A DNA stretch of 64,000 nt. Origin: Telmatactis stephensoni. Taxonomy: Eukaryota > Cnidaria > Anthozoa > Actiniaria > Isophelliidae. Every line of letters begins with the position of its first letter. Within the stretch, counting starts at the first letter, position 1. Location of the stretch: the NCBI GenBank assembly GCA_029948255.1, contig JALIZF010001257.1, positions 124,001-188,000 on the forward strand, written 5' to 3'. Below are positions 5,690 through 50,900 of this stretch, piece after piece. Position numbers and translations under genes: made by a program. The notes below the pieces were generated by a model. The model did no database searches and was not told the DNA's origin. It saw only the letters and a list, made by a program, of their open reading frames with translations.

Positions 5690-5857
5690 CCGTAGGTCAG
5701 GGATGACCATTTTAAGTGATCGTGTTTGTTGATGGTAAGGGTTGGATATTTACTGATGCTACAAACCTACATCGGGAATTCTAGCCTTGCGAACGGATGT
5801 GATAATGTTTATGGATGGACGTGCTTGCCTGAGATGCTGCAATCCTACATCGGTAAT
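5690..5857 (-). pseudogene. Degenerate tail of the NLR leucine-rich repeat array
   Basis: Read on the minus strand from 5857 this begins ITDVGLQHL, the same repeat core found in the NLR gene at 9.8-13.9 kb, then decays. The next repeat reads PDVGL followed by a stop, and further stops follow. It is the far end of the same array, separated from the rest by the transposon at 5858-9253 and no longer coding. The nucleotide match to intact repeats (for example GAGATGCTGCAATCCTACAT) leaves little doubt about origin. Confidence 0.85.
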
Positions 5858-6946
5858 AGCGCAGCGCGGTATTACTAAAACTAGCCGTTTCTAATAGAAA
5901 GTGAAATGCTGCGAGCAGAAAACAGCTGGTGTATCCACGTTAGCAGAACTGTTCCCCTAAAACTCACGAAAGTACACCGCTTTGTCTGATATATCAAATG
6001 TTTCTTGTCTATCTCCTGTGCGTTGTGTGACGAACACTGCTAGTTGACCTTCAATATTGAACTACAGAACATAATAATTCTCCAGGTTCAGTGTCGGACA
6101 CACACAGTTCAAAATATTTAGCACCTTGAGTAAAGCAATTTTTCAAACAATCACAAACGGCTAGCGTTGGCAATGATTATGTAACTGACTACGACAAGGC
6201 AAGTTTTAGAAATGTACAAGTACATTTTATTCACTGAAATATATTGCTTTTTCAAACAATCACAAACAGTGTTAGCAATGATTATAAAACTAACTGATTA
6301 AAGTTTATGTATCGCTCCCTGGCAGCTAAAAGAGTCTTGATAAATATCTGACACATAATTTGCCTTGTAATGTATAGAGAATGCATAAATATATGTGGAT
6401 TTAACTGAACTACTGAGAGTAGTCTGCGTAAAGAAAGCCAAAATTTCGATTCACCAGAACTTTGAGCGATGTCATGTGGCTTTCTAAAGAGATTTTACCT
6501 CTTTGAAGAGGAGAACATTGGAATGCAACTTTGTATCGTCTTCTTGTCTTGCTTCGATCGAGCGCACAACGGAGATGAAAAACTCATAAAAGGACATTGT
6601 CTTTCCTGAGAAATATCACTAAAAAGTTCATGGCCTTATTGAATGCTTCCACGAATACAAAGCAGGATTCAGTGGATTCTCGGGGTATGATAAATCTGAA
6701 TAACAATGACAACTTAGCTAGAAACTTGATCGTGAAATCGCGTGGTCAGCGATCATTCCAAGCGTATTTTGATGACGTCACGAATCATCGTTCGCTACAT
6801 CTATATACATACGTGCCTACCAACAGTTGAAGACCGCAAGCCCACAACAAATGGCCTGGGCCAACTCTGTCGTACGTGACACAGGAAATCCATCCACGAA
6901 TAGTGTCGCTGCTCGCTTCGCTCGCAGCAAATAGATATGTTAATTA

Positions 6947-9253: not shown

Positions 9254-9441
9254 ATTGAAGTGTAACGAAGGTCAAGTGTGGTAATGTTTCTGGATGGTAA
9301 TGCTTGGCTGAGATGCTGCAATCCTACATCGGTAATTAAAGTGTTTTGAAGGTAAAGTGTGGTAATGTTTGTTGATGGTAATGCTTGGCTGAGATGCTGG
9401 AATCCTACATCGGTAATTTCAGTATCATCCAGGTGAAGTGT
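9254..9441 (-). pseudogene. Displaced LRR units of the NLR gene
   Basis: On the minus strand this encodes about two and a half 27-residue repeats in an open frame: HLDDTEITDVGFQHL, then LYLQNTLITDVGLQHL, then LDLRYTS. Without the insert at 9442-9846 the frame would be continuous with the NLR coding exon. As it stands they lie downstream of the stop created by that insert and are probably untranslated. They end at the inverted-repeat element 5858-9253. Confidence 0.85.
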
Positions 9442-9846
9442 TTTTATTTTATTTATTTATTTAGAAGCTTCCACTTAGTTCACAAATTTACAAAAACAAG
9501 AGAGAAAACAAAACGAACTGAAAAGACACAACTACAAAATAGCACAGTTTGAAACTAGGTGAGGGAGCAACTAACGGACTCAAAAGGTCCCGGCAAGGTT
9601 GCCCCCAACAACGAAAAAGAAAAAAAAAAAATTGATATACATAAAACACTTATAAATATATATATATATTAATACTAATAGCGGCCTCCATAAGCCTAAT
9701 GTGAGGGAGGGATACGGCAAGGAGACCGAGGGAGGGTAAGAAGCAAGGCTTATGGAGACTACTAGTAGTTTAATGGAATTAAGCGGTCCTAAGACATAGT
9801 TACAAGTGGTCTAAGTAAGGGATGTCAAGTGACTGTCAACAGCACT
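9442..9846 (-). mobile_element. Retroposon-like insertion interrupting an LRR codon block
   Basis: About 405 bp lying exactly between two halves of one LRR repeat and flanked by GTGT on both sides (9438-9441 and 9847-9850), a short target duplication. Read on the minus strand it ends in an A-rich tail built of AAAT units, as in SINE or other retroposon insertions. It is not an intron: no AG acceptor lies at the downstream edge. The insertion puts a TGA a few codons into the element, so the NLR open frame ends in QCC. Two GGCTTATGGAG-type segments (about 9680 and 9747) form an internal inverted pair. Confidence 0.7.
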
Positions 9847-12800
9847 GTGTGGTAATGTTTGTTGATGGTAATGCTTGGCTGAGATGCTGCAATCCTACAT
9901 CGGTAATTGAAGTACGACTAAGGTCAAGTGTCGTAATATTTGTTGATGTTAATGCTTGGCTGAGATGCTGTAATCCTACATCGGTAATTTTAGTACCACC
10001 GACGACAAGTGTGGTAATCTTTGTTGATGGTAATGCTTGGCTGAGATGCTGCAATCCTACATCGGTAATTGAAGTATCATCGAGGTGAAGTGTGGTAATG
10101 TTTGTTGATGGTAATGCTTGGCTAAGATGCTGCAATCCTACATCTGTAATTGAAGTACGACTAAGGTCAAGTGTGATAATGTTTGTGGATGGTAATGCTT
10201 GAATAAGATAAACGAAACCTGTAGGATCTATATCATCATCATACGTCATGCTTGTCGAAAGAACCTCTCTACTATCACTGAATTGTAATGGCACATTGCT
10301 GATATATGGGCTTTCACAATTAAGAAAGAAAGTGTCTCCTTCTGGTGACTGTGAATTTTTGCATATTTCAACCCTTAAATCGAAACTACTGGCACCGTAA
10401 AGGATAAGTGTAGTGATTTTTGTCGATGGCAATGCTCCATAAAGACGTTCTATTCCTGAAGCAGCAAGATTGGTGTATCTGAACTCAAGCGTAGTTATCA
10501 TTGTTGCCGGTAATACTTTCACCAAGTATTGCAAGCTTACCGCAGAAATTTTTTCAATATACGAAAGGTAAAGTGTGGTGATATTTGTTGATGGTAATGT
10601 TTGGCTGAGATGCTGCAATCCTACATCGGTAATTTTAGTATCATCCAGGTGAAGTGTGGTAATGTTTGTTGATGGTAATGCTTGGCTGAGATGCTGGAAT
10701 CCTACATCGGTAATTGAAGTATGACTAAGGTCAAGTGTCGTAATGTTTGTTGATGGTAATGATTGGCTGAGATGCTGCAATCCTACATCGGTAATTGAAG
10801 TGTTATGAAGGTAAAGTGCGGTAATATTTGATGATGGTAATGCTTGGCTGAGATGCTGGAATCCTACATCGGTAATTGAAGTGTTTTGAAGGTAAAAAGT
10901 GGTAGTGTTTGTTGATGGTAATGCTTGGCTGAGATGCTGCAATCCTACATCGGTAATTGAAGTATTATCGAGGTCAATTGTGGTAATGTTTGTTGATGGT
11001 AATGCTTGGCTGAGATGCTGCAATCCTACATCGGTAATTTTAGTACCACCGACGACAAGTGTGGTAATCTTTGTTGATGGTAATGCTTGGCTGAGATGCT
11101 GCAATCCTACATCGGTAATTGAAGTATCATCGAGGTGAAGTGTGGTAATGTTTGTTAATGGTAATGCTTGGCTAAGATGCTGCAATCCTACATCTGTAAT
11201 TGAAGTACAACTAAGGTCAAGTGTGATAATGTTTGTGGATGGTAATGCTTGAATAAGATAAACGAAACCTGTAGGATCTATATCATCATCATACGTCATG
11301 CTTGTCGAAAGAACCTCTCTACTATCACTGAATTGTAATGGCACATTGCTGATATATGGGCTTTCACAATTAAGAAAGAAAGTGTCTCCTTCTGGTGACT
11401 GTGAATTTTTGCATATTTCAACCCTTAAATCGTCACTTCTGGCACCTCTAAGGATAAGCGTAGTGATTTTTGTCGATGGTAATGCTCCATAAAGACGTTC
11501 TATTTCTGAAGCAGCAAGATTGGTGTAGCTGAACTCAAGCGTAGTTATCATTGTTGCCGGTAATACTTTCACCAAGTATTGCAAGCTTACCGCAGAAATT
11601 TTTTCAATATACGAAAGGTAAAGCGTGGTGATATTTGTTGATGGTAATGCTTGGTTGAGATGCTGGAATCCTACATCGGTAATTTCAGTATCATCCAGGT
11701 GAAGTGTGGTAATGTTTGTTGATGGTAATGCTTGGCTGAGATGCTGCAATCCTACATCGGTAATTGAAGTACGACTAAGGTCAAGTGTCGTAATGTTTGT
11801 TGATGGTAATGCTTGGCTGAGATGCTGTAATCCTACATCGGTAATTTTAGTACCACCGACGACAAGTGCGGTAATCTTTGTTGATGGTAATGCTTGGCTG
11901 AGATGCTGCAATCCTACATCGGTAATTGAAGTATCATCGAGGTGAAGTGTGGTAATGTTTGTTGATGGTAATGCTTGGCTAAGATGCTGCAATCCTACAT
12001 CGGTAATTGAAGTACGACTAAGGTCAAGTGTGGTAATGTTTGTTGACGCCAAATCTTCACTTATGCTGGCAAGACACTCATCATTGGCGCGACATTTCAA
12101 CTTAATGATTGGGCAGAATTTGTGTTTCAGTGAGTTCATGATTCGTTTCACACCTGTGACTGTCTGGATTTTACATTCCAAGCCATCGATATCAGTTATG
12201 GAAGAATGCGGCGTACCGTCTGGTATTTCAATTTTATCATCCTTACATGATTCACTGACCAACTTCAAAAAAAATGATGCAGCTACACAGTCTACGTCAG
12301 ATAACGCCACATCACCGAAAGATAGGAATTTTTTCATATCAAGGTGATATTTCTTTATCATCTTTACTCCAAACTCTTCATCTTGATATTCATAGAGACA
12401 CTTTGCAAACAGCAGAGTATCCCCTACAATTGTGCGCCTTCTTAGCAACTCTTCCATGAGTTCTTTGTTCTTGTCTTCGTGTAAAAGACCAGCCATAAAT
12501 TGGAATATCATGGTGTCCTCGTGATCACTCAGTGGTATTTGGCCGTTTCTTACAAACTCCAGCGCAGCAAAATACTCGTGGAACGTTAAATGCGAAAAGC
12601 AGAAATTTCGTGTTATCTTAAAAGGTTCTTCTCGAAAACCAGGGCCACAAGTGAGAAGACCGCTAACTTTAAGCTCTTCCACTTCTTGTGTTTCGATGCC
12701 GAATTTCTTCAGCTTATCTTCTTGAAAGATTACTATGATTTTTTTTTCGTCAATCATTTCAGCTGCCAATTTTGACAGTTTATCAAGTGTCTTTTCGACA

Positions 12801-13899
12801 ACTGGCGGTACTCTGAATTCTTCAGTCGTTTTTGTTCTGTAATCTGATTTCAGATGGAGTTTCATTTCAAAAATGTTCACAACTTTGGAATAAAGATCAG
12901 TTATCGTAACAGGAAGATCGAATTGATCCTTCTCCTTTTTGGTTTCAATTTCCCATTCCAGACACCAACACATCAAGAAGCACATCATTGGAATATGGGC
13001 TACGCTTAGCAGATTTTCATTTCTCATAATATGCTCAACTGCAACCTTCCCAAATTCACTATGCTTTGACTGAAAGTACTTTCCAAGAAACACTTGGACT
13101 TGCTCAGGAGAAAACCCCAGAATTTCCACCACTGCATCCCCAAAGTCAACTCCGTTCAGTTGGTCGGCTTCCCGTGGTCGTGACGTAACCACGATCGTAG
13201 CGTCACGAAAGATCTTCTTTTTTGCAAGTTTTGAAACAAGTGTGGTCACAGGCATACAAATGCGTAGGTCATTAGCGTACTTCTCCTCAAGAGGTTTGGT
13301 AATGTCTGAGCGATATGCATACTCGTCGTAACCATCAAGTATAAACAAGACTTTTTCTGGATGTTCAACCATATACTCCAACAAAACCTCATCAATGTTG
13401 GAATGTTCATCCAACAGGGAAGAGCGATTTAAAACATCGCGTATTGTTAATTCTTTCTTTCCAAGCAAATTCAGTTGACGAAAAGTCAACAAGTACACAA
13501 AGTCAAAACCACTGCGGCTTTCACTGTTAGCTTTGTTCTGGAATAACACGTCGTTAGCCCAATCTCTTGTGAGTTTTTGACAAAAAAGAGATTTTCCAAT
13601 ACCAGGCTTACCAACAACCAGAATAGACTTAGGTCTTGGTGAGTCCTTTTTTTGACCAATAAATATCTCCTGGCACGTTTTTATTGGAGTCCCGGTCGTC
13701 TTGCTGTATTCGTCTAATCGGTCTTTCCTCCTGAAATATTTTTTTTTCTTCAAGGGCTTTCGTCCGTGTTGAACGGTGAGGTTAGTGAAGATGTCATCGG
13801 TCTTTGCACTAGACACAGAACCAATGGCCATTAGCTTTGGTTGGAATTCTGTTTGGCTTTTTATTGAAGACTTTAAGCTTCTAGAACGTAATTCAACAT
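9836..13899 (-). CDS. NLR immune receptor: NACHT ATPase plus leucine-rich repeats, truncated C-terminus
   Basis: Cytosolic pattern-recognition receptor of the animal NACHT-LRR family. A single long exon follows a clear acceptor (TTTGTTTTAG, exon from 13899); the open frame extends further to an ATG at 13954, so numbering below starts there (1372 residues). NACHT features: Walker A VVGKPGIGKS (about 113-122), Walker B VLFILDGYDE (202-211), sensor TSRP (257-260), the IPMMC segment near 321, and FCFSHLTFHEYFAALEF closing the helical domain. From about residue 640 come at least 21 LRR units of 27 residues with the core ITDVGLQHLSQALPS, plus two longer spacer units. An N-terminal effector domain (often Death or CARD in cnidarian NLRs) should lie in upstream exons; I could not find it. 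The frame ends early in a retroposon at 9442-9846, so the protein loses its last repeats. Known role is inferred from family. Confidence 0.9.
10201..12060 (-). repeat. LRR-coding tandem repeat with a 1,050 bp higher-order unit
   Basis: The 81 bp coding repeat is itself organised in a larger unit. The spacer block encoding PEGDTFFLNCESPYI occurs at 10201-10560 and again at 11251-11610, offset by 1,050 bp (350 codons), with long stretches identical at the nucleotide level. Each block is followed by the same order of repeat types. Near-identity of such long blocks indicates recent unequal exchange or gene conversion within the gene. Confidence 0.85.
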
Positions 13900-14234: not shown

Positions 14235-14700
14235 TGTAGAGTGATTGCACTTAACCCGTGAAATTGTGAGGACTAAATAATGCAAAATAGCACTTTTAAA
14301 CAATGGAAAACAAAGGATTTTGTATCATTTAGTACTATTTAGATTTTGTACTTTTTCACGGGTTAAGTCAAGAGGTCTCTTGATTAAGTACGACCACTCT
14401 ACTTTTTCGGTAGAGTGACCGCACCGGTTTAGAATGATCGCACTTAATCCGTGAAATTGTACTAGCTAAATAATGCAAAATAGCATTATTAAACAACGGA
14501 AAACAAAGGATTTTATGCTTTTTAGTACATAGTAGATTTTGTACTTATTCACGGGTTAATTAAGTGCGATCACTCCAACCCGTCAAAAAGTACAAAATCT
14601 AAATAGTACTAAATAGCAAAAAATCCCTTGTTTTTCATTGTTTAATAGTGCTATTTAACATTATTTAGCTAGTACAATTTCACGGATTAAGTGCAAATTC
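14235..14700. mobile_element. Cluster of three related MITE-like copies
   Basis: Two direct copies (about 14238-14368 and 14432-14562) and one inverted copy (about 14575-14695) share the ends CACTTAACCCGTGAAATTGT and TTTTGTACTTTTTCACGGGT and an interior with AATGCAAAATAGCA. The shared edges ACCCGTGAAA and TTTCACGGGTT form terminal inverted repeats. Copies differ by many substitutions, so the cluster is not new. No coding content. Confidence 0.75.
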
Positions 14701-16070
14701 TTCTACAAAGATCACTTTTCTTTGCGGTATTTTAAACTAAATTGGAGGAATTCAGTTATTGACGGCAAATGGCACAACTTTAAGGGCTAATGTAAAATTG
14801 TCAACTCTAACCCAAGGCACCTCAAACTTTGGAATTGTGTATTTCAAAAATAAATTAGTTTATGACCAAAAAACAGTTTCGCTTCATATGCACTTTACAT
14901 ACTGGGGTACATCCACACTATATATACAAATGTAGGCTACGAGTACGGTAAGGTGTCACTGTGGGAAAGGGTACACGTAGTGTCTTCTGGAATTCACTGA
15001 ACAGTGTTATAAGTTCCTCGGCTGAGCGATCTGTAAAGGCTGGTGACATAGAATCAGTGCAAATAAGTGACAATTTCACTTTTTGCAAAAATTCGCATTT
15101 AAGAATTTACGAATTGAGTTCCCTGATTGAGTCAAAAACTGAGTTTTCCCAATCTTTTGCGGTTTTTCATGAGAGACCGAAGAAGGTGAAAAGACTGACT
15201 TTATTTGAAATAAAATGGACGGGATTTTTCAGTCAGTTTTATTGGAAACATTCCAAGTCATGATGTCTGGAAAAAGTGACCTTTTTTAGCTTTTGCCCTC
15301 ATTAAGAACTTTCAAAGAACGTGCACTTTTCCAAGATTTCAGTAACATTTTTAAACTCATCGTTAAAGGTGTCAGTATGCTAATGAAGTGCTGTCGCTGC
15401 CGTTTGCATTCTGGTTGTGTTTAATGTTTTAATCTTAATGGATTTTCAAATGTTGTTTCAAAGATGATAATTAATACACTTCTAGCATATCAAGCAAAAA
15501 TGTTTAGTCGTTTGAGAGATATTTTGGAAACAATTTCGAAATAGACGTTACGGCAATGTTTATCAAAAGTAAAGAAAAAATGATATCTTCGCTTTGGAAG
15601 AGAGTTAAGAATAACCATTTAGCCACTTTGAAGTGTACAAGCAAAGGCTTCTTTACCGTGTTTTGTTGGTGTTTCACGTGTCCTGAGTAACGTTTAGGCG
15701 GTCGTGACTTTTAGCATATAAAAATTAATGCTTCAGAATATTTCTGCAAATTACTCGAAATCAAACAGATTGACTTTCTTTTGTATAGTCTAATTTGCTT
15801 CGTTTTAGCTTGAAGTTAATGATTCCATTTATTGCTTGTCCCGAGCAGGTCAGGTTTTTGAGATATTTAGCAAAAACCAATTTCAACGATAAATGTTTAT
15901 CGTTGCCATGGTAACGCTGATTATGTTAAAACTGTCATAATTGAAAACTTTCATCTTACCTCTACAGCTGGTATCAATATCAAATTGATAGCTGCGGATT
16001 ATAGCTATCAACAAAGTGAATAAATGTGAAAGGTTTGATCCAAAAATTACTATAGGGAGTCACCTTAGTC
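14701..16070. other. Interval without recognised genes
   Basis: I see no supported gene. A 100-codon plus-strand open frame at 14961-15263 has no family resemblance or flanking splice logic I trust. A polypurine patch of G and A follows at 16096-16150. Confidence 0.4.
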
Positions 16071-18210: not shown

Positions 18211-20808
18211 TTACCTACCAATTCTGGACAACTCTGTGTTAGGCTGCTCCACATAATTTGTTGGTCGAAGAGGTATAGTTCCAATTATTGGTTGATTGTT
18301 ACCACTTGGTTGGTATGCTAGTGGGAGTAGATTTGGTTGATTGTTACCACTTGGTTGGTATGCTAGTGGGAGTAGATTTGGTTGATTGTTACCACTTGGT
18401 TGGTATGCTAGTGGGAGTAGATTTGGTTGATTGTTACCACTTGGTTGGTATGCTAGTGGGAGTAGATTTGGTTGATTGTTACCACTTGGTTGGTATGCTA
18501 GTGGGAGTAGATTTGGTTGATTGTTTTGGTATGCTTGTGGGGGAAGAATTAGTTGAGCATTACTACCTGGTTGGTTTGCTGGTGGACATGGTCTTCCTTG
18601 ATTTCTGTTTTCCAAGGGGTCAGGAGGTATAAACGATACATTTTGCTGGTTATTATCATCTGGTTGGTTGGTTGCTGCTGAAGCTTCACACACTTCTTGA
18701 ATGCCTTAGATAAAAAACAAAAAGAGAGATAACAGTCATAAAAATTGTCATATATATACCTTTTAAAGACGGGAGAGCTGATCAGAAGTAGTATGTATTT
18801 TTTATAAACTAATATATCAGTTATGCTCATCAGATATTTTCAAATATACAGTTATTCAAATATAGCAGAAGTCTTTTTGCAATGGTTGTGGTTAAGATTC
18901 CTTAATTGTACCACGTGGTTATAATTAATACATAACAATAATACAAGTAAATATTATACATAGTAATACTAATAATATAACGATATATAAATAACCAAAG
19001 GATTTTTATTTGCATACTATCTATATTTTAAAGAAAAAAGACACTATACAAGTCATGTATATATTATGTAATATGTGAAGCAATTGTTTGCAACTTTTCA
19101 TAATTCAACATGTCAATTTGACACATTTCATTCCATGCATGTTGAAAACCAGCTTGGCAAATGATTTCAACTTTGGCATTCACCAAGCTTAGAGAATTTT
19201 AAACAGTTTGTCATTATATGCACAATGTACAAAATAAAACTGACCTTTTGCTTCTGCTGATTCAGCTGCTGAGGTTGTTGGAGTGTCTGTACTGTGATGA
19301 GTATTCCCTATTTCCTGGCCATCATTTCGTTGCCCTTGTTTTGATGCCCTGATGGCTAAATATATATAATCAATATGAAAATAATGTGCATGATCAAATC
19401 AGAAGCAGGAGCTGAAAGAATGAAGCTTGGATAAGCACTATCCCTCAGATAAATCCTTATCCAGCAGATAAAATTATAGCTCTTATCCAGTGGATGACTT
19501 ATCCAGGTTTCAGATAGTAGACGGTTTTAATTGTGCTTTTTCCAAGTTTGGACTGATTTTGAGCAGTGATATTTTGCTATCTGCTATACCCTTGATGAAA
19601 CTTATAATTTAATATAGGTACCATAGACTGTTTATGCCTCTGTTTTGGGGTGCTTGAGCACAAATTGTTACAATGAGATTGCCAACAAAACTATTGTTCC
19701 TTGTCAACATAGATTTCTTGTGTTTGATATGCCAGCGATAACAAGCTAATGAACATCATTATAATATAATGAGCATAAAATTGAACAGTTGACATGCTTT
19801 TGTTAGGCAAATTTCTTCCATTTAAGAACAAGATATTATAAGCAATGGGCTCTTTTGATCCCCTAAGAGAGACCAGGAAATGCTAAAACTCTAAACTTCA
19901 ATTTTAACACCCTAAAAGATACAAAAATCCCTGACTTTTACTCCTAAGAGATACGACGAGCATACCTGATCCTTTTACAATGGAGTTCACCCTCCCCCCC
20001 GGGGCCTTGACCAATCATTCTCTGGTTGGTATTGATGATGATGATGAAGACTTTATTTATTGAGGGTGAAAGCATATTATTTACTGGTGGCCCAGTAGTT
20101 TACAATATGGCCTTCAGAATTGGTATTGGTATATAGGCATCTTTAAATTACAGTACTTATAACAGAATCATCTAGAATTTATCAATATTTACCTGCAGTA
20201 AAGGTATCACCTTTAAATAGAATTGAACACCATTTTTTATCCTTGTCATTGTATTCAGAGATACCAATGGCTTGATCTCGATGAAAGACACCGTGTTGAA
20301 TCATTATAGGTGCACCTTTGGCCCTCTTTAAGTCGAAACTTGTTGAACTAGCCAGTTTGAGGGTAGTACCACTTTCACTTTTTTCTGGTATCAATTTAAA
20401 CTTTTTAACATCTTCACCATCAAAGGCTACTGCTTTGGCTGAACTTGTCTGAAGTTTTTTGACCAAATTAATACAATGTCCAAATAATATCTGATACTTT
20501 GATATGATCTGATTTTCATATCGCTTAAATGCAATTCTGCCCTGCTCACCACATATTTTGAATTCTGTGGAATCTATTGTCAGAGTTTTGACACTTTTTT
20601 GGAATGGTTTGTGGTATCTTTCAGCTACAAATTTGGTGCAATTACATTGTAGCACAGAACTACTTGTAACTAACCACTGTTCATTTTCATATTGTTCGTG
20701 ATCTTGCATAAGGAATGCAAAACCACATTCTCTCCCAACATTGCCTTTACTGTCCATCTCTTTTAAGAGATATAATGCCTTCTTGCCATCCTCTGATATA
20801 GTTACCAT
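18211..20808 (-). CDS. Likely inactive trypsin-fold protein with Pro/Asn/Gln tandem-repeat tail
   Basis: Three exons with matching phases: 20808-20193, 19355-19245 and 18704-18211, giving 406 residues. The first exon (205 residues) has the outline of a trypsin-like peptidase domain: GRECGFAF and WLVTSSSVL where active enzymes have a His in LTAAHVL-type sequence, and AKGAPIMI followed by AIGIS where they have GSP. Both catalytic His and Ser appear replaced (Ser and Ala), so it is probably a non-enzymatic pseudo-peptidase. Exon 2 is a polar linker. Exon 3 carries five near-identical 15-residue repeats (QPNLLPLAYQPSGNN) after a partial one. The start ATG has an in-frame stop upstream, but a TACTAATAG acceptor-like site lies just before it, so 5' exons are possible. 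GTAGGTAAAT at the 3' end could also be a donor. The domain call is by eye and uncertain; the gene structure is firmer. Confidence 0.65.
18292..18526 (-). repeat. 45 bp coding minisatellite
   Basis: About five copies of a 45 bp unit (TTGGTTGATTGTTACCACTT and the next 25 bases) with virtually no base differences between copies. They lie in the last exon of the gene at 18211-20808 and keep the frame, each adding 15 residues. Confidence 0.95.
19850..19995. mobile_element. Decayed relative of the CCCTAAAAGGTACC element
   Basis: Contains CCCTAAAAGATAC, CTAAGAGATACGACGAGCAT and TGGAGTTCACCCTCCCCCCC, the same arrangement as the right half of the element at 61680-62112 with many substitutions. It lies in an intron of the pseudo-peptidase gene. 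Confidence 0.5.
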
Positions 20809-20829
20809 ATTATAGCTATTAGTAGGTAA

Positions 20830-21515
20830 AACAGCTATTCTTCAGATGATACTCATTGTTAATTATTGATTTTGCAGTCTGCAGAAAAAAATACAAATGT
20901 CAATACAATATAGCACTAAGCACAATTGAAGATGTCTTAAATAACTCTGATCAAAGGTCTCAATGAGAAAACTCACAGATACAGTACACAAGCCAAAAGG
21001 AAAAACTTAAGCCTTAACTAGGGTATAAAAAAGTACTAAAAGTGATCAACATAAATAGTAATAAATAGTGCTATTTTATCACTAATTCTATTGTTCTATG
21101 ATTGTGTTTTTCCAGAAAATATTCATACCACCCCCAGCCCCCACGGAATGGTTTTTCTTTTGAGATCCCCTAACCCCCCAAGAATTTCTTCCAGGGCCCC
21201 TTGGGAATTTCCATGACTTTCCCACTGGCTTTTACCACCCCCTGGAAAAACACAAATGCCCCCAAATGTACCTATTTTTACCGTAAGCATTTAGCTGTGG
21301 CAGTTTACAATTGTCTTTAATTCATGGATAAAGTTGTAAATGGTAAATTTCTATATCAACACTAGTTGTGTATATCTCAAATCAAAGCCGCACTTGTATA
21401 TATAGATATTAGTAATTAGCAACTATAAACTTAAATCTCAAAGAGTTTTCAACTGAATCTAAACTGGCCAGCCTTGTATACTGTAGTCTTTGTTTACTGA
21501 ATTTAGCTGGTACAC
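20830..21515. other. Interval upstream of the pseudo-peptidase gene
   Basis: This would be the promoter or 5' intron of the minus-strand gene ending at 20808. No upstream exon could be confirmed. A C-rich patch (21129-21250) is low-complexity. Confidence 0.35.
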
Positions 21516-21524
21516 GGCATTACT

Positions 21525-22447
21525 AAATCACGGAATCCACGGAATCATGGAATCAACGGAATCCAACTTAAAACATTGAATTTTGTAAAATACGCTAAAA
21601 TTGTAAATAAAGGACAAATGAAACAATGAACGGGCTAGGAAATTACTCCAATAGACTAACAACTCAGTGATTTCGCGCGCCATAATCAATGATCAATGTG
21701 TATGCTTACGACCAAAATCTCTTGAGGAAATGCACACCAGAGACAATGTGATAACAAGAACACAACCTTAGCTTGAACTATGCCTTACCTGAATAAAATA
21801 TTTCCTTAAACTCGATAAATATACAGAATATTTTCACCCATTTACGCCGCCATTTTGTCAATGGAACAAGAAGCCCAAAAGCGTTCTGTGGTCTTCCACA
21901 GGAAGCCCAATCATTTGTTTGAACGAATAGTTACTTACGTCGATGTTCGTCTTTGGTTTAGGAATTATTTCAAGCCTTTTTTATGTCTTTTTGCAAATTT
22001 CAAGACCCGAAGTAAGCCTCCGATACTTTTGTACTCTTAAACAAAAGACGAACATCGACGTAAATAACTATTCGTTCAAACAAATGATTGGGCTTCCTGT
22101 TCCGTTGACAAAACGGCAGCATAAATGGTGAAAATATTCTGTATATTTATCGAGTTTAAGGAAATACTTTATTCAGGTAAGGCATATAGTTTGAGCTAAG
22201 TTTGTGTTCTTCTTGTTCTCACATTGTCCCTGGTGTGCATTTTCTCAAGAGATTTTGGTCGTAACTAAGCATACACATTGATCCATTTTGGCGCGCAAAA
22301 TCACTGAGTTGTTAGTCTATTGGAGTCAGTCCCTAGCCCGTTCATTGCTTCATTTGTCCTTTATTTATAATTTTAGCATATTTTACAAAATTCAATGTTT
22401 TAAGGTGGATTCTGTTGATTCCGTGGATTCCGTGATTTAGTAATACC
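21525..22447. mobile_element. Long foldback element, ~430 bp arms
   Basis: The left arm starts ATTACTAAATCACGGAATCC and the right arm ends with the complement at about 22425-22445. The arms pair almost throughout, including CGGGCTAGG with CCTAGCCCG and AAACAAATGATTGGGCTTCC near the hinge at about 21990. The CCACAGGAAGCCC motif seen in several other elements occurs in both arms. The arms have scattered mismatches and small indels. No coding content: short open frames inside are by-products of the palindrome. Confidence 0.85.
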
Positions 22448-23145
22448 GGCTGGTACATAGAGCTGAATTGGTTCTGGGTCTGAATACCATAATTATTAAT
22501 TTTTGAGAAGCAAGCTTAAGCTTATTAATTATTTGTTTGCATTTTAAAATCTCAATATTCCTCTTTCTGCATAATTTCTAAAAACTAAAAAGAGGAATAG
22601 TTCAACACAGTTATTAAAAGACTTGGAAAGGTCAAAATTTGTGATCAAATGCACATTAGAATGCAGCTGCCAATTAGGCATCTAGATTTTGCAGTGAAAT
22701 CTCTAAGATTATATTTGGTTTTTATGGGCATGTCTATAATTATGATCATACTCTTTTCACCACAGATAACTTGGAAAGACATTATCCTGGATCACACTAG
22801 CAGTACAATCCCAAACATAGTGGAATTTAGGAGCTGATCTCTTATAATTAGCAATTAACCCACATTGTTAGCCCTTTGATTTGCTGTTTAGTTGACAGCT
22901 GTTTATCATCACCTACCTTTGCATTTTTGCAGTTGATTCAAGTACTGTTTCTTATCATTCATGCTGAACCAAGAATGCACCTGTAGTGTTCTTTTAAGAC
23001 TAAAACTAGCTTCTTGTCTTCTGTTGCAAAACTTGTGAAGGTTATGTCTAAGTTCTATCTAATTAATTCCTCATAGCATGTTTCAATGATTATGTTGATA
23101 TCTGTTAAGTAGAAAGAAAGTAGTTAGTTATATATTATGGATGGC
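22448..23145. other. Interval without recognised features
   Basis: AT-rich sequence with no supported exon or repeat structure that I could see. Confidence 0.4.
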
Positions 23146-23410
23146 ATCGTTGGCTGAGCGGTTAGAGTGCTAGCCTTTCACCGCTATGGTCCAGGTTCGA
23201 GTCCCAGCTCAAGCGCCTGGATCATGTGAATTCCATTTGTTTAATGTGTTGTTCTGTACCATACCATGAGAGTTTTTTCTCCAGGTTATCTGGTTTTTCC
23301 TCCCTCAGCAAAAATCAGCATGTGAGTCGAGTGATTTTTTGCAAAAACACTTAATGTAGAGGGTAGTGTGTGAGAGTACAGTGTCCGTCAATTAGTGCGC
23401 AAGTGCTAGA
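23146..23410 (+). mobile_element. tRNA-derived SINE
   Basis: The head is tRNA-like with A-box TTGGCTGAGCGGTTAGAG and B-box GGTTCGAGTCCC at normal spacing (about 23150-23210), as in Ser/Leu-type tRNAs. It is followed by a ~200 bp body with TTTTTTCTCCAGGTTATCTG and TTTTTCCTCCCTC, the type of conserved central segment seen in many invertebrate tRNA SINEs. It is not a functional tRNA gene: no proper acceptor stem pairs across the ends. Confidence 0.7.
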
Positions 23411-23667
23411 AGACTTGGACACTTTAAACAGTTAATGTTATATATATAAATGTAATTATAATTACTCATTGAGACTAGCTGCAGTCTTGGAATGCTCATT
23501 CTGTACAACAGAACTACCCTTACAGACAATAGAACTACTCTATGGGCCACAGTACATGCTGTATAGCGTGAATTAAAACAGTGGCACAGTAAAAAATAGG
23601 TTGGTGGGCAAGAGATGTTCAGCCTAGATGGGGTTGATTCATTTAATAACTAATTATTACAGTTTTG

Positions 23668-23800
23668 ATCAAGAGACCATAATACTAAGAAAGCAAAACT
23701 CAGTATTGATGTCTGTGTGATGTTTGTGGTGACTAATTAGGCTATTTTTAGTAACTTCATATACCATTGCGCGAGCAAGGCTCTACATCAATAGAAATCA
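23668..23800. mobile_element. Single arm of the 5371-5650 MITE family
   Basis: Starts CAAGAGACCATAATACTAAG and continues through CAGTATTGATGTCTGTG and GGCTATTTTTAGTAACTTC, matching the left arm of the element at 5371-5650 at lower identity. The opposite arm is missing. Confidence 0.75.
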
Positions 23801-24147
23801 AATGCCGAATGCAAACGGTACTGTTTGCGCACATGGCAAAAATCAAATTTTATTGTCTGAGTTGACACAATGTGAAATTTATTTATTTTTAATTATACAT
23901 ATAACAGCCATATATTATTGCACCCCCTCCCACTGTACAATGTTTCTGGGTGTTAAAAGGTTTGTCAGACTGACTGCTGAGTGCATAGGACAAGGATGGG
24001 GAAGGGCCAGGGGGGCTAGATTTTTTTTGGAGGGTGGCTGAATACATCACAACCATTAAGACTGTTGATAACATGAAATGCTGAAGAACTAGTACAGTGC
24101 AGAACAAGCAATTAGCAAAGATTGAACACGCCCAAAGACATATTTTT

Positions 24148-28021: not shown

Positions 28022-29104
28022 TTACGGTGGCCTATAAGGGACATCGTTGTTTTCTTTTTTATGATCGTTTTCTTTTTAGATTTCGTGATTTCAGATAAAT
28101 TATCCTGAAGTTTTCAGATATTATCGCGAAATTTCATGATAATTATCTCGAAGTTTTCTGATATTATTGCGAAATTTCAAGATATTATCGCGAAGTTTCA
28201 AGATATTATCGCAAAGTTTCAAGATATTATCGCGAAGTTTCAAGATATTATCGCGAAATTTCAAGATATCATCGCGAAGGTTTTAGATATTTATTTCGCG
28301 AAATTTCAAGACAGCACGTGAATCAGTGATGTTCTTCATGTAAGACTCCACATACTAGCACTCAGTTCAATATCAATGGTCCGCTAATACATTTGTTCTG
28401 ATATGAAGTGAAAGCCTATGATCGAGTCCAGCCAGTCACTGCCAGTCACGGGGAGGATGTGACGAACATTTAGATTGAAGATAGTTTAATATATTATTGC
28501 CAAAAGATTCCATTTTTTCGTGCGTGTGTACGCTAATAGATGCACAGAAGACGTCAAAATGTGGTGAGATATTCCTGGTAACTAAGGCTATTTTTAGTAA
28601 CTTCGCCATTGCGCGCAAGACTCTCATTGAGTCAAATCAAAATTGATTTTGGACTATATTTTATCTGAATGTTCTTCACATCCTCCCCATGGCTGGCAGC
28701 CACGCTGGACTCGATCATAGACTTATACTTCATATCAGAACAAATGTATTAGCTGACCACTGATATTGAACTGAGTGCTACTATGTGAAGTCTAACATGA
28801 AGAACATCACTGATTCACATGAAATTTCGCGAAATAAACATCTTAAAACGTCGCGATAATATCTAAAAACTTCGCGATGATGTCTTGAAACTCCGCGATA
28901 ATATCTTGAAACTTTGCGATAATATCTTGAAACTTCGCGATAATATCTTGAAATTTCGCGATAATATCAGAAAACTTCGAGATAATTATCATGAAATTTT
29001 GGGATAATATCTGAAAACTTCGTGATAATTTATCTGAAATCACGAAATCTAAAAAAGAAAACGACCATAAAAAAGAAAACAACGATGTCCCTTATAAGCC
29101 ACCG
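28022..29104. mobile_element. Foldback element C, copy 1, with internal 21 bp minisatellite
   Basis: Begins ACGGTGGCCTATAAGGGACA and ends with the complement (TGTCCCTTATAAGCCACCGT), with arms about 300 bp or more. Each arm contains tandem copies of a 21 bp unit (TCGCGATAATATCTTGAAACT): about eight on the left (28130-28300) and about five on the right. The middle (28330-28800) consists of inverted segments with ATGAAGAACATCACTGATTC at both sides, and includes a GGCTATTTTTAGTAACTTCG core shared with the MITE at 5371. Confidence 0.85.
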
Positions 29105-30235
29105 TATTATCGCGACGTTTTAAGATGTATATTTCGCGAAATTTCATGTGAATCAGTGATGTTCTTCATGTTAGACTTCACATAGTAGCACTCAGTTCAA
29201 TATCAATGGTCAGCTAATACATTTGTTCTGATATGAAGTATAAGTCTATGATCGAGTCCAGCGTGGCTGCCAGCCATGGGGAGGATGTGAAGAACATTCA
29301 GATAAAATATAGTCCAAAATCAATTTTTTTTGTATGAGAGTCTTGCGCGCAATGGCGAAGTTACTAAAAATAGCCTTAGTTACCAGGAATATCTCACCAC
29401 ATTTTGACGTCTTCTGTGCATCTATTAGCGTACACACGCACGGAAAAATGGAATCTTTTGGCAATAATATATTAAACTATCTTCAATCTAAATGTTCGTC
29501 ACATCCTCCCCGTGACTGGCAGTGACTGGCTGGACTCGATCATAGGCTTTCACTTCATATCAGAACAAATGTATTAGCGGACCATTGATATTGAACTGAG
29601 TGCTAGTATGTGGAGTCTTACATGAAGAACATCACTGATTCACGTGCTGTCTTGAAATTTCGCGAAATAAATATCTAAAACCTTCGCGATGATATCTTGA
29701 AATTTCGCGATAATATCTTGAAACTTCGCGATAATATCTTGAAACTTCGCGATAATATCTTGAAACTTCGCAATAATATCTTGAAACTTCGCGATAATAT
29801 CTTGAAACTTCGCAATAATATCGTGAAACTTCGCGATAATATCTTGAAACTTCGCGATAATATCTTGAAACTTCGCGATAATATCGTGAAACTTCGCGAT
29901 AATATCTTGAAACTTCGCGATAATATCTTGAAACTTCGCGATAATATCTTGAAACTTCACAATAATATCGTGAAACTTTGCGATAATATCTTGAAACTTC
30001 GCGATAATATCTTGAAACTTCGCGATAATATCTTGAAACTTCGCGATAATATCTTGAAATTTCGCGATAATATTTTGAAAATTTCGTGATATCTTGAAAT
30101 TTCGCGATATCTGAAAATTTCGAAAAAAATTATCTCAAATCTCAAAATCAGAAAAAAGAAAACGACAACAACAAAAAAGAAAACAACGATGTCCCTTATA
30201 AGCCACCGTAGATGTCCCTTATAAGCCACCGTAGC
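29100..30235. mobile_element. Foldback element C, copy 2, adjacent and with expanded minisatellite
   Basis: Abuts copy 1 and shares the middle region (29150-29640), in an order inverted relative to copy 1. Its left arm is reduced to ~50 bp and its right arm has about 18 copies of the 21 bp unit (29690-30070) before ending in TGTCCCTTATAAGCCACCGT, the last bases of which are duplicated again at 30210-30240. The plus and minus open frames here (repeats of seven residues, since 21 is a multiple of three) are not genes. Confidence 0.85.
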
Positions 30236-47927: not shown

Positions 47928-50900
47928 ATGGCGGCCGATGGAGAAAGAGCATTTTCAACTTTTATGACAGAAGTAAGTTTCTTTTTTATGGATTTATCTT
48001 TAATATTGGCATAGATTTAGTACTGATTTAGCTCCGATAATAATTTTTAATCTGTAGACCGAGTTTCTTGGCGATATCCAATGGAGCTACGTACGAATAT
48101 GACATATTTGTTTGAACAAATGTTACGGCCGGTAATTTTTAGTTTTGACGTCGGCGTTCTTTAGAACGTCAATTAATATTGTAGAAATGATTAAGTTATG
48201 ATGTACTGATATCCGATAGCTTGTAAAAAATATACCACAGTTTTTCACGAAATTCTACGCGTTGCATACAAACAAGGAGAACATTTACACGACAGAAACG
48301 TTGAAAAAGATTTGTATTCTACTTTTAGGTCAAGCAAATAGAAACTACCGATTCTGTATGGACAGGACCAAAACAAATAGAAAGGCTAACAAAACCAGGA
48401 ACCAAATATCTTAATTTAAATCCTTATGAGGTGAGGTTATCCACTTTGTTGCCTGTTTTGCAGACTCAATTTTTTATGCTTGAAAATCTCACCAAAAAAG
48501 TCTGCTGAACTGAGCACTAATTAGTTTCCAATATGCATGAGCAATTGTCGAGGACTGGCCAATCAGAGTGAACTGAGTCTATAAAGCAGGCTACCCATTT
48601 TGCTTCATCATTTCCCATTTTTCCCTTCATTTCGTTTGGGCCATTTTTTCCTTCATTTTGTTCCCATTTTGTTCCCTTCATTTCCCTCCATTTGGAGCAG
48701 ATTTCATATGACTGTGAAAACATGGTCACAGTTATGGCAAGAGTTATAAATGTTGTTATAGAGAACACAGCACTGACGTGGTCATGGCAGGACCAAGCCT
48801 ATTTTGCACTCATGTGTAAACTGTTCTTATTTTCAATATTATACAGTGAACTCCCTCAATGCCAACACCTTTCTAAGGCAGACACCACTCTAAGGCAGAC
48901 ACCTCTCTAAGGCAGACACCTCTTTAAGGCAGACACCACTCTAAGGCAGACACCTCTCTAAGGCAGACACCTCTTTAAGGCAGACACCACTCTAAGGCAG
49001 ACACCTCTCTAAGGCAGACACCACTCTAAGGCAGACACCTCTCTAAGGCAGACACCTCTCTAAGGCAGACACCTCTCTAAGACAGACACCTCTCTAAGGC
49101 AGACCCCACTCTAAGGCAGACCCCACTCTAAGGCAGACACCTCTCTAAGGCAGACACCTCTTTAAGGCAGACACCACTCTAAGGCAGACACCTCTCTAAG
49201 GCAGACACCTCTTTAAGGCAGACACCACTCTAAGGCAAACACCTCTCTAAGGCAGACACCACTCTAAGGCAGACACCACTCTAAGGCAGACACCTCTCTA
49301 AGGCAGACACCTCTCTAAGACAGACACCTCTCTAAGGCAGACACCACTCTAAGGCAGACACCACTCTAAGGCAGACACCACACCAGGCTAGGAAAATACT
49401 AGCAAACTATTGATTACTGGGGAACTGGGATCATTTTCTCTTAATAGAGATGGCATTTAGCTGGTTGTGCATTAGTCTCCCTTGCAGCCATTTTTTGTGT
49501 CATCATCACACAACACTTCCATAGCATTGAGTGATGACACAAAAAACATAAATACATAGTTTATTTGATGAAGCAGGTTATATTATGGGCAGCAATAGCT
49601 GATGTGGCCTGCTAACTAATATTACAAATATATAAAATGAATAAATAGATAAGAATATAAATAATCCACTTCAGGAGCTGTACAAGCATTACTATGAGGA
49701 ATGCTACCATACTAGCATAGAGTAGATAGTGTATGACTGTGAAAACGGCATGGCACAGTTACGGCACTGACACGGTGATGGTACAGCACGGTCTGTTTCA
49801 CACTCATGCAAAAGCTGCTCTATACAACACCTGTAAGCGATCAATTTACATTTGATTCCAGACTAAATAAATTAATTTATTTGCGAGGAAGACTAGCTGT
49901 GCATACCTCTGCAAAAATCCTGGCTATACTACTGTTGTGGGCTACAAAAACCCTAGAGCCCACCTTCTTCATGATCCCCATTGTTGCATTTAAAGGTCAA
50001 GATGCTTCACAGAAAATCCATTTGCCAAAGTCACTGCAAGATAACAATTCTCAGTGAATAATTGACTTTTTTCTGTTGCTATTTTTCCAAAGGTTTTACA
50101 ACTGTTACCAGATGCATCAGAAGAAGAACTTAAAAAACAGTATAGAAAGGTGTAGCAATCTTTAGTGGATTGATTAATAGCTTTGACTGGTTGTGAAAAT
50201 GAGTTTGCCTGGATGTCTTGAACAACCTAATGGGGAATTTACATGGCACTAGGATCATTCTAGTAGGCAAAATAATAATCCTACCTGCTATATATTTACT
50301 GCATTGTGTTTACATAGGAATTTGTGTCTTCACTTTGGGTACTAGGATCGTCCTACTAAACAGAATGCAGTAAATGTATAGCCGGTAGGATGATTCGCCT
50401 GCTAGGATAATCCTAGTACTAGGATGATCCTAGTGCCATGTAAACACCCCCTAAAACAAATTTTGATAGTAAACATCTGTAGTCTTGCCTGCATGTCACA
50501 GTCGGTACCCTCAGTATTCAGGAGTCAAAGCCAGATGCTTCCTCTCAAAAATCTTGAACTAAATGTCACTCAACTTTTGACAAACAAGGTTCCAAAGTTT
50601 AATCGGAAACTTGAAAGTTCAAGTTGTACTTGGGAAGTTTAAAATATACTGTTAAAATTGGTAAACCTCAAACTTTCTTCCTAGTATTCCCTTAAGTCCT
50701 ATTAAACATTTGGACAACTAGCTCCAAGTCCTCTTGTCTATTTAGGAAATTAATTCTCTTTCCATAACCAACTCTCTAATGATCATTGTCCATTACAAGA
50801 GAAATCCTAGTACATAAATTCAGAAATTTGTTAGAATTAAGGTCTGCACTGAGAATGAGTAAATGAAGCAAAACTTCTTTGCCTAAAGAAGTTTGCAATT

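Follow-up and report, generated by a model that had tools for sequence, protein, structure and literature searches.

The 64,000-nucleotide window analysed here (C702:124001–188000 of the Telmatactis stephensoni assembly, which totals 483.5 Mb in 1782 contigs; coordinates below are those of the window) contains a gene whose product carries a long and highly uniform array of leucine-rich repeats (LRRs). By sequence and by structure model, this gene is an animal NOD-like receptor (NLR) of the NACHT-LRR type. An open frame of 1377 residues runs on the minus strand from 13969 to 9836. The NACHT-LRR coding exon proper, up to the stop, probably spans 13899–9836, since a probable splice acceptor, TTTTAG, lies just before 13899 (context TTTACTGTTTGTTTTAG followed by ATGTTGAATT) and homologs begin to align near there. 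The NACHT domain occupies 13067–13624 on the same strand (residues 116–301; PF05729, 89.9 bits for a cut-off of 26.7) and the LRR domain is C-terminal (PF12799, 114 bits; PF13516, 102 bits). The protein matches NLRP3 by sequence (E 6e-31), and the top matches in a fold search with its model were NLRs, including NLRP14, NLRP3 and NOD2. Among the 120 homologs listed of 430 found, the named NACHT homologs are Oculina and Exaiptasia proteins of 40–46% identity.

Architecture of the repeat array

The array lies on the minus strand at 9836–12052, as delineated from a unit table, the two Pfam LRR families and an AlphaFold2 model. A first-pass annotation made from the sequence alone had placed an NLR LRR array here, and we indeed found 23 full units plus a partial one: 19 units of 27 amino acids, two of 28 (the YLSYIEK type), two of 79 and, ahead of the stop, a partial unit of 11 residues. 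The short LxLxxTx variants that the annotation had listed (DLSRTS, HLDDTS and others) are all present in the unit table. Its claim of a near-uniform scaffold at the DNA level also held, with a mean identity of 88.3% among the canonical units of the window (n = 18, 17 of them in the open frame and one past an insertion described below).

Designating units by type, the array reads, in the direction of transcription, as variable block 1 (D, H, V, D, H(E); 11648–12052), spacer module 1 (11246–11647), variable block 2 (D, H, V, D′, Y, Y, D, H(K); 10598–11245), spacer module 2 (10196–10597) and variable block 3 (D, H, V, D; 9872–10195), all on the minus strand. Each spacer consists of a 28-residue unit, a 27-residue unit containing LPATM and a 79-residue unit, and the two modules are 97.3% identical. 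A higher-order repeat of 645 nt, which includes a spacer and the D, H and V units, is present in two copies that are 97.8% identical. The same unit types thus do recur in similar order, as had been claimed, and the recurring D-H-V order arises from this block duplication.

The AlphaFold2 model (1050 residues, 32 aligned sequences, mean pLDDT 79) covers the first part of the array. The modelled LRRs adopt an alpha/beta fold with pLDDT mostly of 85–97 outside the loop of the 79-residue unit, of which a 52-residue stretch falls below 50. Counting unit positions from 0 and taking the register from the unit table, the strand corresponds to indices 7–9 and the helix to indices 17–29, which places codons 9, 11, 12 and 14 on the strand or just past it in the model. 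The strand side of LRR proteins is the concave, ligand-facing surface. We refer below to these four codons as the face and to the other 23 as the rest.

Unit homogeneity among paralogs

A search of the same genome returned at least 86 matches, and the best 34 of 297 candidates were scored, so that these matches set a minimum for the size of the family. Twenty loci were fetched and the comparison was made between the window gene and its eleven closest relatives (L017–L027), ten of which share 87–91% amino-acid identity with the window gene and the last, L026, 72%. A position matrix detected 281 units in these 12 loci. Forty of them (score below 65, or containing N) were dropped before the pN/pS, linkage and nearest-unit counts, which leaves 241 units (score of at least 65). 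Loci L028–L036 were excluded from the unit counts, with L028 and L030 entering the identity comparison only.

The mean DNA identity of canonical units within an array is 84–92% in all 12 loci, compared with 56% and 65% for two distant NLR loci from elsewhere in this genome, a contrast that is widened by the looser threshold used for the latter (15 vs 65). Spacer modules, picked by their 27-residue unit (ending in LYGA or LYRA, or carrying LPAT with YTNL), are 88–99% identical within genes, with a between-gene median of 88.8%. For 81% of the window units the nearest unit is found in the same gene, vs 7% by chance, and this share exceeds chance in 10 of the 12 loci. In the close gene pairs L020/L024 and L021/L025, the partner takes much of the nearest-unit share.

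Exact units are common to only 3 of the 64 gene pairs that are not allelic-like, and recent exchange between genes therefore looks rare; frequent recent trading of units between genes is not supported. The longest stretch common to two genes has a median of 65 nt in the arrays and 116 nt in the NACHT parts. Note that older exchange of units between genes is indistinguishable from common descent.

Replacement excess at the face codons

We then compared all units against all others with Nei–Gojobori counts of nonsynonymous (pN) and synonymous (pS) differences, using the 241 units of the 12 loci. At the face, pS is 0.144 and pN 0.397, giving a pN/pS of 2.76; for the other 23 codons, pS is 0.138 and pN 0.078, a ratio of 0.57. 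An excess of replacements at the LxLxxT positions, the test set beforehand by the first-pass annotation, was thus found. A mutation hotspot at the face codons was considered and rejected, since the synonymous rates of the two classes are equal.

The window array taken alone gives 3.06 for the face vs 0.36 for the rest, with the face codons in ranks 1–4 of 27 by pN. The face ratio exceeds the rest ratio in 12 of 12 arrays, including L019, which has five units and zero synonymous change at the face. Removing one copy of each close pair (L024 and L025) as a control left 183 of the 241 units and ratios of 2.66 and 0.53. In this reduced set, a single one of the 17,550 possible four-codon sets reaches the pN of the face, namely the face itself. 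In 100 bootstraps over genes, with at most 120 units each, the ratio ranged from 2.01 to 3.76 for the face and from 0.44 to 0.63 for the rest. Single changes along a minimum spanning tree limited to edges of at most 3 nt were 69 nonsynonymous to 3 synonymous at the face and 86 to 34 elsewhere (Fisher p = 1.2e-5, multi-nucleotide codon changes, 7 at the face and 2 in the rest, being left out of the test), and p is 0.004 with edges of at most 2 nt.

A rival account would be relaxed constraint: without any positive selection, the exposed face would drift freely, and the arrays would be homogeneous merely because they expanded recently in tandem. Tolerance of change is to be expected at exposed positions, a recent block duplication of 645 nt is at hand, and the dN/dS of the NACHT parts is itself fairly high (median 0.61 over 55 of 66 pairs, L026 being left out). 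However, free drift predicts a pN/pS of about 1, while the face stands at 2.76 with a bootstrap lower bound of 2.01. The adjoining TT positions (indices 6 and 7) change little, with a pN of 0.058, though their pN/pS is 0.92. The LPATM spacer unit, which serves as an internal control, keeps its four face codons, with a pN of 0.09 over 19 copies. We consider relaxed constraint unlikely on these grounds.

Linkage among face sites

The 241 units display 106 combinations at the four face sites and 113 distinct cassettes at indices 9–14. Thirty-one of these cassettes occur in at least two loci (each close pair being counted as two), and one identical 63-nt scaffold bears 24 different 18-nt cassettes, as would be expected if a limited number of face cassettes were transferred to a fixed scaffold, much as in lamprey variable lymphocyte receptors (VLRs) but in the germline. 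Such shuffling of a small cassette set was the mechanism put forward by the first-pass annotation. It is not what the linkage pattern indicates: within a unit, r2 is 0.086 at 3–8 nt, 0.072 at 9–16 nt and 0.017 at 17–40 nt, against 0.004–0.007 after shuffling, hence about 0.08 between nearby sites and near background beyond 16 nt. Because r2 is low, the face sites largely assort and are not bound in cassettes, although recurrent mutation could contribute to the weak linkage. Rigid cassettes are rejected by these values. The rarity of exact units shared between genes (3 of 64 pairs) and the origin of the recurring order in block duplication also stand against cassette shuffling, which we regard as improbable.

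Lamprey VLRs are built by somatic assembly from flanking LRR cassettes. They share with the window array LRR units with variable residues on the concave face; the latter is, however, whole, within one genomic exon. By tblastn over the 64-kb window, LRR sequence outside the array was detected only at 9254–9441 and at 5756–5890, the rest of the contig not having been searched for cassettes. VLR-like assembly, the comparison the first-pass annotation had drawn, was rejected for the window on this basis: the array forms a single open exon, and its 64 kb show no bank of cassettes. Downstream of the gene, the second of these segments (about 5714–5890 in full, minus strand) is what remains of a degenerate LRR sequence of this family, each of its three frames being interrupted by stops.

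Array turnover between close gene copies

Two pairs of paralogs are closely related, L020 with L024 (contigs C19 and C702, respectively) and L021 with L025 (C598 and C509), and their arrays differ in unit number. For L020/L024, the matrix gives 40 vs 38 hits, of which 27 align and 13 + 11 remain unpaired. For L021/L025, it gives 30 vs 27 units, with 25 aligned and 5 + 2 unpaired. Over the NACHT-containing parts of the same pairs, dS is 0.029, with 3 interior gapped codons among 612 aligned, and 0.016, with none among 615, respectively; the NACHT-part dN/dS of L021/L025 is 0.04.

Flanking identity is high in both pairs. L020 and L024 are 98.3% identical over 3.2 kb upstream and 97.75% over 4 kb that include the NACHT domain. 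Another 2.6 kb, covering most of an upstream HEPN exon, is 99% identical between them, a region where the next paralogs reach 90–95%. L021 and L025 are 97.1% identical over 6 kb; downstream, they are 97.6–97.8% identical on either side of a length difference. In places, both haplotypes seem to be present in the assembly, since contigs C402 and C647 are 97% identical over 7.8 kb. Judging from these sequences, the two pairs are probably, though not certainly, alleles. The genes beside L020 and L024 differ between C19 and C702. No allele of the window gene itself was identified: among the best 40 of 7601 candidates, its upstream region (19000–24000), which includes a 219-aa frame described below, matched C702 and C752 at length, and not C19. 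The variation in unit number and order that the annotation had anticipated is therefore seen between gene copies of one genome, which is a narrower scope than the individuals and species it had in mind.

Insertion and gene integrity

The array of the window gene is cut at 9442–9846 (minus strand) by an insertion of 405 bp, single-copy within the window, with an A-rich end of TAAA type and GTGT at both edges, which ends the open frame. LRR units resume beyond it, outside the frame, at 9254–9441 (minus strand; tblastn), where the longer matches show 85–93% DNA identity to array units; the window copy has thus been shortened, and it may be impaired by the removal of its last units. An intron at 9442–9846 is not favoured, as there is no AG beside the resuming repeat.

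This interruption, together with the broken frames of L018 and L021, raises the question of whether the family is decaying, with arrays that expand and break and a window copy that is a pseudogene in progress. Yet NACHT-LRR frames are open in 9 of the 12 loci, over 852–1979 codons and with the shortened window copy included (L022 contains 5000 N). The scaffold codons, at a pN/pS of 0.57, and the low NACHT-part dN/dS of L021/L025 argue in the same direction. Decay as the general explanation appears very improbable to us.

Upstream exons and neighbouring sequences

An open frame of 219 amino acids at 20185–20841 (minus strand) is a candidate N-terminal exon of NLRs of the window type, as two further NLR genes, at C702:~51 kb and C752:~160 kb, are preceded by copies of it that are 87% and 90% identical. 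It matched no Pfam family over the cut-off and its structure model is poor (pLDDT 34). Upstream of L020 lies a HEPN_DZIP3 frame instead (169 bits; L045:1332–1985, minus strand, at C19:~1196.5 kb), also present in L030 and L031. By tblastn, among the matches listed, neither HEPN_DZIP3 nor the N-termini of the Oculina and Exaiptasia proteins were detected in the window. From their sequences, the upstream exons thus seem to differ among NLR genes whose NACHT-LRR exons are similar.

Close to the possible upstream exon, a proline/glutamine/asparagine-rich open frame at 18211–18705 (minus strand) contains 5.3 copies of a 45-bp unit that are 100% identical to one another. Between this frame and the NLR exon, positions 15368–16067 belong to a high-copy element found in dozens of places, with copies mostly 86–93% identical and often arranged as inverted pairs ~0.2–0.9 kb apart; further inverted repeats are present at 14245–14694. 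Satellite-like arrays were observed at 28099–30109 and 48865–49379, made of a 21-bp unit, in three blocks that include both orientations, and of a 17-bp unit that is present 30 times. Elsewhere in the assembly, COX1 is split in L049 (contig C1781), where the same locus holds a 276-aa frame that we take to be LAGLIDADG-like, and contig C1782 carries a second COX1-like copy with stops. COX3 of the mitochondrial contig shares 95% identity with the nearest Actiniaria entries, 91% with Isactinernus and 88–89% with black corals and Halcampella, which points to a sea anemone as the probable source and not to a stony coral.

Related anthozoan receptors

Of the 120 homologs listed, the cross-species set comprised the 55 in which the pattern recognised seven units or more; the 65 with fewer were left out. 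Across the 55, the median entropy ranks among 25 positions are 3 for x9, 3 for x11, 2 for x12 and 6 for x14. A protein search with the LRR region returned many LRR proteins without NACHT as well as anthozoan NLRs, of which only P0150 was used among the new ones. Three homologs picked by choice, from Montipora, Oculina and Exaiptasia, were compared closely, and they display a similar layout at the protein level. The Montipora (28-residue unit) and Oculina (29) proteins vary mainly at x9 and x12, x11 being mostly S; the Exaiptasia protein, with units mostly of 26–27 residues, retains H at x9 and has its variation immediately behind LHL. The scaffolds themselves differ among the three, which suggests, at the level of these sequences, repeated homogenisation in separate lineages with differing details.

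Discussion

We consider it likely that the window gene belongs to a recently expanded animal NLR subfamily, in which germline diversification of the LRR sensor results from turnover of units combined with selection on the face codons. Units would be gained, lost and homogenised, seemingly largely within a gene, through gene conversion or unequal exchange, both among 81-bp units and among larger blocks. Selection would favour replacements at indices 9, 11, 12 and 14 and preserve the rest of the fold, so that the four face residues may form a concave recognition surface. By analogy with the WD40 arrays of the fungal HNWD proteins, the array may read variable cues of non-self or of pathogens.

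Several observations weigh against this reading. Concerning selection, the face codons hold exactly ranks 1–4 in only 5 of the 12 arrays, codon 9 falling to rank 14 in L021 and 11 in L025, and codon 11 to ranks 15–18 in L019, L022 and L026. Four-codon sets with a pN/pS equal to or above that of the face number 971 of 17,550, which is due to codons with hardly any synonymous change. The strictest cut of the spanning tree (1-nt edges) gives p = 0.06, the 28-residue spacer unit varies at the face indices too (ratio 1.43), and the raised dN/dS of the NACHT parts has already been mentioned. Note that selection is assessed here by counting methods, on units that recombine and are not independent. 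Concerning turnover within genes, same-gene nearest units form a majority in just two of the 12 loci, the window gene and L022, and in L021, L025 and L027 the within-gene unit distance is not below the between-gene one. As to the close pairs, the similarity of L020 and L024 ends ~0.75 kb downstream of the array, a 2-kb stretch upstream is present in additional tandem copies on C702, the similarity of L021 and L025 ends ~1.85 kb upstream, and errors in the assembly of the arrays may lie behind the pair differences.

This locus points to a concrete route by which animals without antibodies may obtain receptor diversity: highly uniform LRR units, four codons per unit that appear driven to change, and a fast turnover in unit number and order. 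Such a route is already established for fungal WD40 NLRs, and with LRRs in anthozoans it would be convergent across kingdoms. Genes with such arrays are easily misassembled. A more speculative extension, which we hold to be doubtful, is that the family is the animal counterpart of fungal allorecognition NLRs, with unstable LRR arrays leading to differing specificities among colonies or individuals, perhaps even among clonal cell lineages. Since clonal growth allows anthozoans to hand on somatic lineages, changes that the arrays undergo in the body could then serve as a heritable, adaptive-like repertoire.

The literature searched, which left subscription journals mostly uncovered, showed among the papers listed no earlier report of this combination for animal LRR NLRs, and an earlier print account is possible. 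The comparisons that follow draw on the portions of the cited papers that were covered. Cnidarian genomes have expanded NACHT-LRR genes, tandem clusters and haplotype differences in gene content (Acropora, PMC12314368; Porites and Pocillopora, PMC10236652; actiniarians, PMC5094078), and the parts of these repertoire papers covered here describe neither LRR unit turnover nor selection on unit positions. The zebrafish NLR-B30.2 genes likewise form a large animal NLR family, in which, in contrast with the array described here, the LRRs were judged not particularly variable and not to be the variable part (PMC4852459, in the portion covered).

The closest parallels are fungal. In fungal NLRs with ANK, TPR and WD repeats, high internal conservation goes together with positive selection and with arrays of polymorphic length (Dyrka et al, 2014; PMC4986451), as also appears to be the case here. 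The covered part of that survey reports no LRR NLRs in fungi, and high conservation in only 0.8% of metazoan ANK, TPR and WD repeats. In the HNWD family of Podospora anserina (HET-D, HET-E, HET-R), a NACHT domain is followed by C-terminal repeats of very high internal identity that evolve in concert, vary in number and are under positive selection at four codons, set in pairs around constrained codons (PMC1805685; this design is also treated in PMC12222747); spontaneous mutants with rearranged repeat arrays have been described (PMC2873952). The window family likewise has a NACHT domain, highly identical repeats in 12 of 12 arrays and four codons selected according to counting methods, and repeat number differs in its two close pairs, whose allelism is probable although their flanks are partly dissimilar. 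It differs in that HNWD proteins are fungal, carry WD40 repeats and have a known function in allorecognition, whereas the family described here is animal and built on LRRs. It also differs in that exchange both within and between loci is reported for HNWD in the portions covered, while exact sharing of units between genes is rare here. Overall, the gene is most likely an animal, LRR-based variant of the fungal NLR strategy of high internal conservation, in which turnover would proceed largely within genes and be joined by diversifying selection on the face.

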